Source: Akkermansia muciniphila
GTDB taxonomy: Bacteria; Verrucomicrobiota; Verrucomicrobiia; Limisphaerales; BJHT01
Assembly: GCA_945861535.1 (NCBI GenBank)
Contig: CAMAUZ010000018.1
Location: 1 to 64,000, forward strand
Length of the DNA: 64,000 bases
Reading direction: 5' to 3'
The translations under genes were made by a program, and so were the position numbers. The notes under the pieces were generated by a model. It was given only the letters and a program-made list of their open reading frames with translations. It was not told where the DNA came from and searched no databases. Positions 51,785-56,922 of the stretch are shown here, piece by piece (the first letter of the stretch is position 1; each line of letters starts with the position of its first letter).

Positions 51785-52131
51785 GCACTCTCCCAGTTCT
51801 CGGCGAGAAAGTCGTAGGAGGTTGTTGAACGCGCCACGCGAGCGAAGCATCCGGTCGGATCAAAGCGGCAGTCGCGAGCGCTCGGCTTGGCGTAACTGAG
51901 CTTTCAGTCACCAAACCTATGAAACTCACTTGAAGGCGACGAATCATGTGGGTTGGCATTGGTTGCGTAGTTTTCCCATTACTCTGCCGTGTAGTCCCAT
52001 TTCCTTTGCTCTTTCCGACGGGTGACTGGGCGTTGCGTTCCAGTCTGTCGCCAGATTCCATTATTGACCCGATCCCGGCAGCAAACGACCATCACCACTG
52101 TTCCAAATGTGACCGAACTCATCGCCTGCGT

Positions 52132-53505
52132 GTGAAACCCACAGCACTTACACTGCGCCCTCCCGCCCGCCGTCTGGCGCGGCGCGAGTTCCTCCGTGTC
52201 GGCGCGCTCGGCGGCCTCGGACTTTCCCTGCCGCAATTGCTCGCGGCGCGGACCGACGGCGTCACGTCCCGCGCCGATTCGTGCATCGTGATTTTCCTCA
52301 ACGGTGGGCCGAGCCATCTCGACATGTGGGACATGAAGCCCGACGCGCCGTCGGGCATTCGCAGCCCGTTCGCGTCGCTTCCCACCACGGTACCGGGTGT
52401 TCACTTCTGCGAATATCTGCCGCGCCTCGCGAAGCAGATGCACCGTTGCACGCTCGTCCGCTCGATGAACCACAGCGTGAACAACTCGCACGCCGCCGCG
52501 GTGTACGCGGCCCTGACCGGCCACGATCGCGGCGAACAGGGCGGCGGCGCGAAGCCCACCGATCATCCGAACCTCGGCTCCGTGCTGGCCAAGCTGCGGC
52601 CCGCCGCGCCCGCCGCGTTTCCCTACGTGGCGCTGCCCTACCAGACCAAGGAAGGCGCGGGCGGCCCGCTCCAGCCGGGCTTTATCGGCGGCATCATCGG
52701 CGGGAACCATGATCCGTTCTGGGTGCTCGAGGATGCGAACGAGCCGAACTTCCGCGTGCGCAATCTGGCGTTGCCGGCGGAAGTCCCGCCGTCGCGCATG
52801 GCCGGGCGCGGCGAACTGCTCGCGAATCTCGAACGCTCCTTCGAACTCCAGCAGGGCCGCGCCAGCCTCGCCTACGACGTGATGAGCGCCCACCAGCGCC
52901 GCGCCTTCGACATGCTCACCACCGACGCCGCGCAACGCGCCTTCCAGATCGACCGCGAGCCGGCCCGCGTGCGCGAATCCTACGGCCGCAACATTTACGG
53001 CCAGAGCGTGCTGCTCGCGCGCCGGCTCATCGAGGCTGGCACGCGCGTCGTCACGATGTCCTGGGCGCCGGACGCCAACGCCACTTGGGACACGCACGGC
53101 GACAATTTCAACAAGCTGAAAAACACGCTGCTCCCGCAGTTCGATGCCGCCGCCAGCAGCCTCCTCACGGACCTCGCCGACCGCGGAATGCTCGACCGCA
53201 CGCTCGTCGCCGTGCTCGGCGACTTCGGCCGCACGCCGCGCATCAATGCCAACGCGGGCCGCGACCATTGGAACTCCTGCTACTCGATCCTCCTCGCCGG
53301 CGGCGGGATCAAGGGCGGCCTCGTCTATGGCGCGAGCGACCGCACCGGCTCCGTCCCCGCCGAACGCCCCGTCTCGCCCGGCGACATCATCGCCACGCTC
53401 TACCACCTGCTCGGCGTGGACCCGCACATGAACATCTACGACGTGCTCGACCGCCCGCACCCGCTGGTGCCGACGGGGCATGTGCTGAATGAACTGATCG
53501 GGTGA
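52132..53505 (+). CDS. DUF1501 protein with TAT-type signal
   Basis: A DUF1501 protein of about 457 residues, starting at a GTG at 52132; an ATG at 51946 would add 62 residues of unlikely sequence. A twin-arginine signal ARREFLRVGALGGLGLSLPQ (about residues 16-35) sends it to the periplasm through Tat. The core has CIVIFLNGGPSHLDMWDMKP, WAPDANATWDTHGDNFNKLK and VAVLGDFGRTPRINANAGRD, the metal-binding and signature blocks. It is the second DUF1501 gene here, but has no DUF1553 partner next to it. Unlike the copy at 20095-21654 it has no palindrome in the coding part. Confidence 0.88.
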   Translation: MKPTALTLRPPARRLARREFLRVGALGGLGLSLPQLLAARTDGVTSRADSCIVIFLNGGPSHLDMWDMKPDAPSGIRSPFASLPTTVPGVHFCEYLPRLAKQMHRCTLVRSMNHSVNNSHAAAVYAALTGHDRGEQGGGAKPTDHPNLGSVLAKLRPAAPAAFPYVALPYQTKEGAGGPLQPGFIGGIIGGNHDPFWVLEDANEPNFRVRNLALPAEVPPSRMAGRGELLANLERSFELQQGRASLAYDVMSAHQRRAFDMLTTDAAQRAFQIDREPARVRESYGRNIYGQSVLLARRLIEAGTRVVTMSWAPDANATWDTHGDNFNKLKNTLLPQFDAAASSLLTDLADRGMLDRTLVAVLGDFGRTPRINANAGRDHWNSCYSILLAGGGIKGGLVYGASDRTGSVPAERPVSPGDIIATLYHLLGVDPHMNIYDVLDRPHPLVPTGHVLNELIG

Positions 53506-53630: not shown

Positions 53631-53852
53631 TCACGCGCTCATCGCATAAATCGCGGGGCGATAACGCGGGAGGGGAATGGCCTTGCCGTGCAGCCGCGCC
53701 GTCTCCAGCCACGCCGCCTTTGCACGCAACGCTTCGTGAAGTGCCGCTTCCGGCGTCGCCCCAAACGCCGAGCATGATTTCAGGTCGGGAATGTCGGCGA
53801 TGTAGCCGCCGTCCTCTTCGCTATAAAATACGTTGATGTGATAATCGCTCAT
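53631..53852 (-). CDS. HicB-like antitoxin
   Basis: A 73-residue HicB domain: YHINVFYSEEDGGYIADIPD then LKSCSAFGATPEAALHEALR, the partial RNase H fold of these antitoxins. There is no added DNA-binding domain, so autoregulation may depend on another part of the operon. The start lies four bases after the hicA stop. The longer open frame upstream overlaps hicA and is not used. Confidence 0.86.
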   Translation of the reverse strand: MSDYHINVFYSEEDGGYIADIPDLKSCSAFGATPEAALHEALRAKAAWLETARLHGKAIPLPRYRPAIYAMSA

Positions 53853-53856
53853 GGAT

Positions 53857-54108
53857 TCAGTCCTGCATGGTGAGATGGAATTCTTCAATGTCGCGCAAGA
53901 ACTGGCGCACCTGATAGGCCTTCGCCTTGCCGCCGACATTCTGCAAGTTCAGCGGCCGATCCGCCAACGGATGTTCGTAAATGTGATGGCTGCCGCTGAC
54001 ACGATCCAAACGGTAGCCGAATGCCTCCGCCAGACGGCACAACTCCTCAAAGCGAATGTTGTGCGCACCGGCCAGCACTTTATCCAAAAGCTTGCGTTTG
54101 CGGCTCAC
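53857..54108 (-). CDS. HicA-like mRNA interferase toxin
   Basis: An 83-residue HicA-like toxin. The catalytic His lies in VSGSHHIYEHP, the double-stranded RNA-binding-like fold that cleaves mRNA. The N-terminal half (KLLDKVLAGAHNIRFEELCR) is longer than in E. coli HicA. The GTG start at 54108 overlaps the stop of an upstream small gene by four bases. The order is small gene, toxin, antitoxin. Confidence 0.85.
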   Translation of the reverse strand: MSRKRKLLDKVLAGAHNIRFEELCRLAEAFGYRLDRVSGSHHIYEHPLADRPLNLQNVGGKAKAYQVRQFLRDIEEFHLTMQD

Positions 54109-54299
54109 AACTCTACCTCCACGACGATGATGCTGTCGCCGGCCAACACTCTCGCCATCGTTGCACCTGCCGTGCCGTTGCCCCACCTGTCGCGGTGAGC
54201 AACCATTTCGAGGGTGGACTGGTCTTTGCCGATGTCTTGCTTCATGCCCGTGTCCCAGACGATAGCCACACCGGCAGGCTCGCGCACATAAATATCCAC
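54105..54299 (-). CDS. Small gene coupled to hicA, unknown function
   Basis: A 64-residue protein, first gene of the operon, with a GTG start and its stop inside the hicA start (GTGA). The sequence alternates hydrophobic and charged residues (MARVLAGDSIIVVEVEL at the end), which suggests a small beta protein. No family is recognised. Because of the four-base overlap it must be co-translated with the toxin; it may be a regulator or an extra antitoxin part. Confidence 0.65.
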   Translation of the reverse strand: MDIYVREPAGVAIVWDTGMKQDIGKDQSTLEMVAHRDRWGNGTAGATMARVLAGDSIIVVEVEL

Positions 54300-54403: not shown

Positions 54404-56182
54404 ATGAGCGAAACCACATATTCCGAACGCACGGATTCATTCGAGGAGAAGCTGCGCCTGCTCGAGGCGGCGTGGCGCAAGAAAGACTTCCGCCTCGCGC
54501 GGTCGCTGGCGCATTCGCTGCGGCACACGGCGATGCAGGCGCAGGCGGAGGAGGAGAGTCCGGGCCAACCGCTCGCGGCACCGGCGCGGTTCGCGGCGGT
54601 GGAGTCGCTGCCCGCGCCGTGGCGGGCGTGGGCAAAGGGTTGGAAATATTGCCGCGCGCTTCATCTCGACGAGACCCTGGGCATCGAACGGCCGCCGGAG
54701 CCGGTGGAGGTGCTGCTGAGTTTTCCGGCGGAGCAGGTGACGTCGCTGGCGCGCGAGGTCCGGGTCGCGCGGGTGGTGGATGGCGCGCTGCGGGAGGTTC
54801 CGTGTCAGGTGCATGGCGAGGTGCGGCGGGGGAAGGAGCGGCTGGCGAAGGTGCTGTTCATGGCGGGCGGCGCGATGCACCAGCGGCAGACGTTGCTCGT
54901 TTTTCACGGCAATCCCGAGGCGGAATTGCCGGCGTATCCGACGGACTTGGAGACACGCGGCGAGGGCTTCGCGCTGGATATCGAGAATGAGTTTTTCAAG
55001 GCGTCGCTCTCGCGGCAGATGGGGCAGCTCGAACGCATGGCGATCAAGCGCGGGTTCGGGCTGGAACTCTTCGCCGGCGGCGAGGGGCACGGCGAGCCGC
55101 CGGGCATTGACTGGGCGCACGATTACGCGGCGGCGGGCCATTTTCAGAAGCTGCGCGTCACGCTGTGGGAGAAATGTCCCGATTACGAAGTCGTGCGCGG
55201 GCCGCTCGCGACCATCGTGCGGCGCTGGGGCTTTCCGCACTCGCCGGTGCATCCGGTGTTCACGCCGAGCCGGCTGCATGTGGATGTCGAGTATCGCTTT
55301 TACGCGGGCCTGCCGTGGTTTCACAAGTCCGGCACCATGCGCGCGATCAAGGATTTCGAGGCCCCCGCGCTGCGCGATGACGAGTGGGTGTTCTCGGGCC
55401 AGCCGTTCACGGACATCGTGTGGCTGGGGCCGGACGGCAAGGTGCGCATCGGCGCGGTGGACGCGGCGCTGCGCGACAGCCTCTGGGGCGTCGGCTTCTT
55501 CAACAAAGAGAGCAAGGACGCGTTCGTCGCGTTCTTTCTGGAACACCGCGCCGAGGGTCTGCCGGAACTGAAACATTCGGCGTCGCCGACGCTCTACTCG
55601 CCCTCGCACGGGCACGTCTGGAGCCGGTATCCGCTGCCGGTGAAGCAGGTGCCGGCGGGCGCGGTGCTGCATCAAAAGAACGCCTACGTCGTGTCGCCGT
55701 TCACCGCGGCGACCGGCCCGCGGATGCTCGAAGAATTGCGCCATCGCCTCGTGCATCCGCTGCCCGTGTCCGCGGGCGACCTGCCGCCGGGCGCGGGTGC
55801 GCAGGAGTGTCCGGGCCGCCTCGCGCGCCCCGGCGAAGCGGGCGACAGCCCGGTCCCGAAGGCGGCGCTGTGGGACGCGTTGCGCGATTGCAAAGACGAG
55901 CAGTTCTACAATGCCGGCCTCAACGTGGTGGACCTCGGCCTGGTCCACGATCTCCGCGTGCGCGGCGACGTGGTGCATGTGCTGATGGCGATGCCGCATC
56001 GCGGTCGTCCGCGCCTCGGGTATTTCGCCTTCGGTTCCGGCGGCAACTCGATGCCCGTGCAGCAGCGGCTGCTGAAGGTGCCCGGCGTGAAAAAAGTGAT
56101 CGTCGAGCAAACGTGGGAACCGGGCTGGAACTCGAACCGGCTGACGGAGGAAGGGCGGCGGAAGCTGGGTTTGGGCGCGTAG
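54404..56182 (+). CDS. Polysaccharide-lyase-like beta protein fused to a MIP18/DUF59 domain
   Basis: A 592-residue protein without a signal peptide. Residues about 1-75 are helical. Residues about 95-460 are beta-rich with LDIENEFFKASLSRQMGQLE, IDWAHDYAAAG and VDVEYRFYAGLPWFHKSGTM, which recall exo-rhamnogalacturonan-lyase-like or related carbohydrate-active beta-sandwiches. This part is uncertain. Residues about 487-592 are a MIP18/DUF59 (SufT/PaaD-like) domain: GLNVVDLGLVHDLRVRGDVV, then VEQTWEPGWNSNRLTEEGRR. Such domains help insert iron-sulfur clusters. The usual DPE motif before NVVDLGL is changed to DEQFYNAG. The pairing is unusual and the function open. Confidence 0.6.
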   Translation: MSETTYSERTDSFEEKLRLLEAAWRKKDFRLARSLAHSLRHTAMQAQAEEESPGQPLAAPARFAAVESLPAPWRAWAKGWKYCRALHLDETLGIERPPEPVEVLLSFPAEQVTSLAREVRVARVVDGALREVPCQVHGEVRRGKERLAKVLFMAGGAMHQRQTLLVFHGNPEAELPAYPTDLETRGEGFALDIENEFFKASLSRQMGQLERMAIKRGFGLELFAGGEGHGEPPGIDWAHDYAAAGHFQKLRVTLWEKCPDYEVVRGPLATIVRRWGFPHSPVHPVFTPSRLHVDVEYRFYAGLPWFHKSGTMRAIKDFEAPALRDDEWVFSGQPFTDIVWLGPDGKVRIGAVDAALRDSLWGVGFFNKESKDAFVAFFLEHRAEGLPELKHSASPTLYSPSHGHVWSRYPLPVKQVPAGAVLHQKNAYVVSPFTAATGPRMLEELRHRLVHPLPVSAGDLPPGAGAQECPGRLARPGEAGDSPVPKAALWDALRDCKDEQFYNAGLNVVDLGLVHDLRVRGDVVHVLMAMPHRGRPRLGYFAFGSGGNSMPVQQRLLKVPGVKKVIVEQTWEPGWNSNRLTEEGRRKLGLGA

Positions 56183-56427: not shown

Positions 56428-56922
56428 ATGCTTACCTCACACGAACTTTTCGGTTTCATGTCGCCCGCGTTGTCCCACCAGATTCTGGAGGACGCCTACA
56501 CGGGCGAGCGGGAACTCTACAAGGCCACCCTCACGGCCGTCGCCAACGCCCGCAAACTGCGCCCGGTTTTCCTTGAGCGGCAGCCGCGTACCGAGCGCCA
56601 CGTCACCATGGTGGCCGCCCTCGGCAAACCCGCCCAGGAACTCATCGCCGCCAATCTCATCCGCGGCTGGCTCCTCAAGAAACAGAACGCCGTCCTGTGC
56701 GATTTCCTCAACACCCTCGGCATCGTCCACAAGGAAGGCGCGGTTGAAGACCTCCCCGAGTCCATGGACGACGAGAAGCTCAAGGCGGGCGTGGACAAAT
56801 TGCTCACCAGCCATCCCAAGGAAACCGCCATCGTGTATCTCCACGCCTTCAACGGCATGAACGACCAGGCCTGGAAAAACCTCAACGAGCTGCTGCAGAA
56901 CGACCCGCGGCTCCAGTTTTAA
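56428..56922 (+). CDS. Conserved hypothetical, all-helical protein
   Basis: A 164-residue soluble protein, mostly helical, with no signal. Visible features: MLTSHELFGFMSPALSHQIL at the start, VAALGKPAQELIAANLIRGW in the middle, and ETAIVYLHAFNGMNDQAWKN near the end. I do not recognise it. Codon use matches the genome and the gene is cleanly bounded, so it is real. It lies 107 bp before gnd on the same strand. Confidence 0.72.
   Translation: MLTSHELFGFMSPALSHQILEDAYTGERELYKATLTAVANARKLRPVFLERQPRTERHVTMVAALGKPAQELIAANLIRGWLLKKQNAVLCDFLNTLGIVHKEGAVEDLPESMDDEKLKAGVDKLLTSHPKETAIVYLHAFNGMNDQAWKNLNELLQNDPRLQF

Follow-up and report, generated by a model that had tools for sequence, protein, structure and literature searches.

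A conserved bacterial fusion of an altered MIP18/DUF59 domain with a predicted sugar-enzyme-type beta protein

What is known of MIP18/DUF59 domains comes from Fe-S maturation and phenylacetate degradation; the majority of them have no tested function. In the window (the whole 64,000-nucleotide stretch of DNA analysed here), one gene was initially annotated as such a domain joined to a beta-rich protein. The window belongs to a verrucomicrobial order that is known mainly through metagenome-assembled genomes. The locus raises two questions: whether the two parts form one genuine protein, and what use a MIP18 domain with a changed signature is put to in it.

Gene layout and distribution of the fusion

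The fusion gene is a single frame with an ATG start and zero internal stops (Table 1). The initial annotation gave the N-terminal part 390 residues. This figure holds for the beta domains (~390 residues), while the whole part measures ~480 residues because a helical lead of ~80 residues precedes them. No signal peptide was apparent in the fusion protein, as the initial annotation had stated, and conservation begins at M1.

Table 1. Features of the fusion gene, its protein and the upstream genes in the window
Feature	Residues	Position	Strand	Basis or remark
Fusion gene, beta-sandwich/supersandwich and C-terminal MIP18-type domain	1-592	54404..56182	+	
Helical N-terminal lead	1-79	54404..54640	+	DSSP of model; conserved from M1 in orthologs
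N-terminal beta-sandwich module, weak likeness to DUF4861 N-terminal module	80-176	54641..54931	+	model; hhalign
Supersandwich (galactose-mutarotase-like), GH38C/PL26-like predicted fold	177-470	54932..55813	+	middle third poorly modelled
Motif GGEGHGEPPGIDWAHDY, candidate substrate site	225-241	55076..55126	+	invariant or nearly invariant in A3
Motif RDDEWVF, candidate substrate site	324-330	55373..55393	+	invariant in A3
Conserved linker GRLARPGEAGDSP	~471-484	55814..55855	+	
MIP18/DUF59-type domain	485-592	55856..56179	+	Pfam, NCBIfam, PDB profile, VIA
D-E-Q replacing DPE	498-500	55895..55903	+	D-x-Q in 32/32 members compared
PHRGRP loop, replacing T-x-x-C reactive-cysteine loop	531-536	55994..56011	+	
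DUF1501 gene, twin-arginine-type leader RREFLRVG		51946..53505	+	DUF1501 E 3e-94
HicA-toxin-like gene and HicB-like antitoxin gene		53634-54186	-	PF07927 E 7e-9 (HicA); E 1e-3 (HicB); between DUF1501 gene and fusion

The same two-part protein was found in 31 of the 320 genomes of the window's order. A contig search gave 13 further full-length or near-full-length loci with 62–95% identity, all carrying the same fusion in one frame, and one more locus that is a fragment at a contig end. The labels of the contig-search orthologs were mostly Verrucomicrobia, the others being Acidobacteria, Latescibacterota and Planctomycetaceae (Planctomycetes); some of these contigs carry doubtful MAG species labels. 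Outside the order but in the same class, the fusion was present in one genome (G617), and among 387 genomes sampled evenly across the phylum the window's own was the only one to have it. A search for viral copies found none. Both halves lie in one frame in every complete copy; the copy in G528 is broken by a frame change. Two pieces in two genomes (L152, 1270-1509; L153, 1368-1967) matched no more of the fusion than its last 50 residues and look like what is left of decayed copies.

The initial annotation allowed for two genes joined by a frame error, and a chimeric assembly would have the same effect. The unusual domain combination would fit either, and nothing further does. Independent assemblies from many genera carry the same one-frame fusion at 46–95% identity, which refutes such an artefact for all practical purposes. 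The dN/dS values were 0.07–0.20 over both halves, so purifying selection acts on both. The Mantel correlation between the halves was 0.85, a value reached by 0 of 2000 permutations. Such co-inheritance is expected within one gene and says little on function.

The MIP18/DUF59 domain and its altered site

The C-terminal assignment of the initial annotation was borne out by sequence profiles and by fold. Pfam PF01883 matched the window protein with an E-value of 1.1e-4 and 22.8 bits, 0.7 under the cut-off of 23.5, and was over the cut-off in the orthologs L033 (33.6 bits) and L014 (25.2 bits) and in the genome search (25.3 bits). The NCBIfam SufT/PaaD models matched the C-terminal domain with E-values of 1e-8 to 1e-5, and DUF59 chains of the PDB with a profile E-value of 1e-8. 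In the VIA comparison, the full-length model gave Z 13.6 to 3cq2 (95 aligned residues, rmsd 1.9), 12.0 to 3lno and 10.5 to 1uwd. The last ~106 residues belong to the MIP18/DUF59 superfamily.

The DUF59 domain is defined by the motif DPE-X26-31-T-X2/3-C with a hyper-reactive cysteine (PMC9045647). The cysteine was kept in every one of 761 SufT homologs surveyed (PMC4982691), whereas it is missing from the fusion. In all 32 members compared, DPE is changed to D-x-Q, and an insertion without a cysteine, in most of them PHRGRP...G-[SG], replaces the T-x-x-C loop. The only recurrent cysteine of the domain lies two residues ahead of the D-x-Q aspartate; it is missing in L032 and L033. Judged by sequence, the motif that marks a functional DUF59 Fe-S factor is absent. 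The initial annotation had read the DPE change as a sign of a new role. The changed signature was found as described, and the change is larger than was then noted. The hyper-reactive cysteine loop is also absent in every member, which makes a new role plausible and an iron-sulfur role less probable than that annotation implied.

The new loop is not decaying, because P531, G534, R535, P536 and G544 show little or no variation, the mean column identity of the MIP18 domain is 71% (vs 69% in the N-terminal part), and its dN/dS is low (0.07–0.16 in computable pairs). With its key residues lost and an equally conserved loop gained, the MIP18 domain probably serves another purpose now. A subgroup (L024, L025, L026, L027, L030 and L036) carries GSISVHPT for GS-GGNS in this loop, which is four residues longer there.

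A profile of the C-terminal domain was searched against 313 genomes. It gave 30 matches with E-values of 1e-61 to 1e-48, all of them fusion genes, and the remainder were at 1e-20 or weaker. From this clean split of scores it follows that the altered MIP18 form occurs nowhere but in the fusion. The window's genome contains three other DUF59 genes, all scoring higher than the fusion's domain. Two of them are SufT-like with CYDPEIPV and APGCG intact, so the cell may have no need of the fusion protein for its normal Fe-S service.

Residues 485-590 share with SufT/MIP18/DUF59 proteins (PF01883, TIGR02945, TIGR03406) the fold, NVVDLGLV and the W-x-P-x-W...L-T block. Unlike SufT, the fusion is without DPE and T-x-x-C, carries an insertion with PHRGRP in its active loop and is attached to a 480-residue beta protein. 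It stays far under the SufT cut-offs, with 31.8 of 143.4 bits for TIGR02945 and 30.8 of 202.6 bits for TIGR03406. The best NCBIfam E-value, 1.9e-8, was for haloarchaeal PaaD, and PaaD (NF041868, TIGR02159) likewise has the MIP18 fold. However, the scores of 34.5 of 180 bits and 26 of 108 bits do not reach the PaaD equivalog cut-offs, the partner domain is different, and no paa genes were noted nearby.

The initial annotation held that MIP18 domains normally stand alone or with ParA-like ATPases. This view proved too narrow, since DUF59 occurs in at least nine modular architectures, S1–S9 (PMC4982691). These comprise the domain alone or with an unknown N-terminal motif, PaaJ/acetyl-CoA acetyltransferase, a P-loop NTPase, a U-type scaffold, DUF1858, Rieske, PqqD or CysE (PMC4982691). 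As in S1–S9, where fused modules tend to stay, the DUF59 domain of the fusion carries an extra module; its predicted carbohydrate-enzyme-type beta domain has no counterpart there (PMC4982691). What is new is best called an architecture with a probably neofunctionalised MIP18 domain, DUF59 fusions as such being already known.

The N-terminal beta part and its relatives

No Pfam or NCBIfam family matched the first ~480 residues of the window protein or of the other members. Residues 80-470 were modelled from a shallow alignment of 15 sequences with a mean pLDDT of 56, and the middle third was below 50; the earlier full-length fold had a pLDDT of 51, so the domain-only model is higher and still weak. 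In the VIA comparison this weak model (pLDDT 56) matched, along almost all of its length, the C-terminal beta domains of GH38 alpha-mannosidases with Z 11.2 (254 aligned residues, rmsd 4.8), and Foldseek gave the same domains with an E-value of 9e-8 and a probability of 1.00. PL26 exo-rhamnogalacturonan lyase came next, its beta domains giving Z 9.0, and then an Aspergillus rhamnogalacturonan lyase and other supersandwich proteins. With low confidence, residues 80-470 can be modelled as a beta-sandwich plus a supersandwich of GH38C/PL26-like type. The likeness to carbohydrate-active lyases proposed in the initial annotation was thus recovered, with GH38 as the better match, and the structure prediction it had called for gave the MIP18 fold and, with low confidence, a fold for this part.

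In the GH38 alpha-mannosidases (such as 6b9o, Golgi alpha-mannosidase II), the C-terminal beta domains show the sandwich-supersandwich order predicted for residues 80-466. Unlike these enzymes, the fusion has no catalytic domain, sequence-level match or signal peptide, and it has MIP18 attached. No Pfam match to the catalytic N-terminal alpha/beta domain of GH38 was obtained, and the stretch ahead of the beta domains is just ~80 residues long and helical. The predicted beta domains also resemble those of PL26 exo-rhamnogalacturonan lyase (5xqg and related entries), but the fusion is ~9% identical to it, has no Pfam match and is far shorter, and lyase residues were not identified. The fusion is not SufT because the defining motif is lost, not PaaD by score, and not a GH38 enzyme because the catalytic domain is missing.

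Residues 91-176 showed a weak profile likeness to DUF4861 (PF16153) in hhalign (Prob 54, that stretch only), which fits the GH38C/PL26-like reading of the fold. In hmmscan, DUF4861 was below threshold and appeared in 3 of 20 members (best E 0.04). Membership in DUF4861 was rejected, since just the first sandwich is weakly similar, no likeness is detectable over the rest of the fusion, and DUF4861 has no MIP18 domain. Matches of the full-length profile to the NPCBM/NEW2 entries 8dek and 8df2 (E 0.5) were gone with a deeper N-terminal profile and were regarded as chance.

Conservation of the N-terminal part is concentrated in motifs including GGxGHGEPPxIDWxxDY, RRWGxPxSP and RDDEWVF. No known catalytic residue pattern supporting an enzyme was found in this part.

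Two adjacent remote relatives of the N-terminal part were found in G676, a genome of the same order (L087, 1-1218 and ~1212-2984), with E-values of 4e-23 and 8e-20. They are 31% identical to each other, belong to no Pfam family and lack MIP18. One has a signal-peptide-like start, and the start of the other is cut by the contig end. Both keep W and D of IDWxxD and R and E of RDDEW. A profile of the pair retrieved only the fusion family from 146 genomes, which gives reciprocal support for the relationship; no wider family around them was found in these genomes. The fusion may be an intracellular derivative of exported proteins active on carbohydrates, from which its beta part would descend.

Possible roles of the fusion protein

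At a probability of about 0.5, sequence motifs and the model point to a protein of the cytosol that acts on carbohydrates or binds sugars and whose MIP18 domain has been repurposed. The main body would combine a beta-sandwich with a galactose-mutarotase-type supersandwich, as the C-terminal domains of GH38 and the PL26 lyases do. Its polar and aromatic candidate site, formed by the three motifs above, would most likely bind or transform a sugar or uronic-acid ligand in the cell; a cytosolic location is suggested because no signal peptide was seen. The MIP18 domain would have retained its fold, lost the acidic/cysteine site of Fe-S maturation and acquired a predicted new conserved pocket of D498, Q500, Y502 and PHRGRP. 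It would then play a structural or pocket-building part, probably in substrate recognition, as a lid or in dimerisation, and not as an Fe-S carrier; an iron-sulfur role is unlikely. A more tentative suggestion is that the D-x-Q-x-Y/PHRGRP pocket works with the supersandwich site, which would make the protein an undescribed class of cytosolic carbohydrate-active enzyme with a co-opted Fe-S assembly domain. A carbohydrate-related role is weakened by the low mean pLDDT (56) of the N-terminal model and by the fact that the GH38 region it matches is not catalytic.

The non-catalytic nature of the matched GH38 beta domains, together with the missing catalytic domain, would suit a sugar sensor or scaffold, in which both parts are binding modules that regulate or organise carbohydrate use without catalysis. 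This is rather improbable, because ~80 positions are invariant across 20 members, and these charged and aromatic residues exceed what a passive scaffold usually needs; links to regulator or DNA-binding domains were not seen. It is similarly doubtful that the fusion is a client-specific maturation factor. The supersandwich would in that case recognise a client, for example a DUF1501 protein whose folding and metal loading must precede its export by Tat, with the altered MIP18 domain still passing on a metal or Fe-S cluster or recruiting assembly machinery. Known MIP18 domains mostly serve Fe-S maturation (PMC4982691, PMC9045647), and a protein without an apparent signal peptide fits a chaperone that stays in the cytosol and serves a partner destined for export. 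However, SufT interactions need the cysteine, C62 in M. tuberculosis SufT (PMC9045647), and both this cysteine and the DPE glutamate are absent in every member compared, two members having no cysteine in the domain at all.

The genomic neighbourhood bears on the same question. A same-strand DUF1501 gene lies upstream at position -1 or -2 in 13/33 fusion loci of four families, which favours a maturation factor. A rough estimate puts such a position by chance at 1–2% of loci, based on how common DUF1501 is: the window's genome holds 119 matches in 7.9 Mb, a very large paralogous family. This abundance and the many loci without a DUF1501 gene speak against a dedicated client, and the upstream copies split into subgroups ~35% identical and are therefore not one fixed partner. 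The other neighbours vary between loci and form no constant carbohydrate pathway, so that only DUF1501 recurs. Directly 3' of the fusion in the window is a 164-aa ORF (56428-56922, +) with no Pfam match that was not seen as a neighbour at other loci. In G415, a ~400-aa protein with a beta-rich look and no Pfam family lies directly downstream of the fusion (L051, 3352-4560).

The protein is a conserved bacterial fusion not described before. With it comes a protein family in which the N-terminal part has no entry in Pfam or NCBIfam. A conserved clade in which the MIP18 domain keeps its fold, swaps its reactive site for an equally conserved new one and is always fused to a predicted sugar-enzyme-type fold makes the other capabilities of this domain testable.
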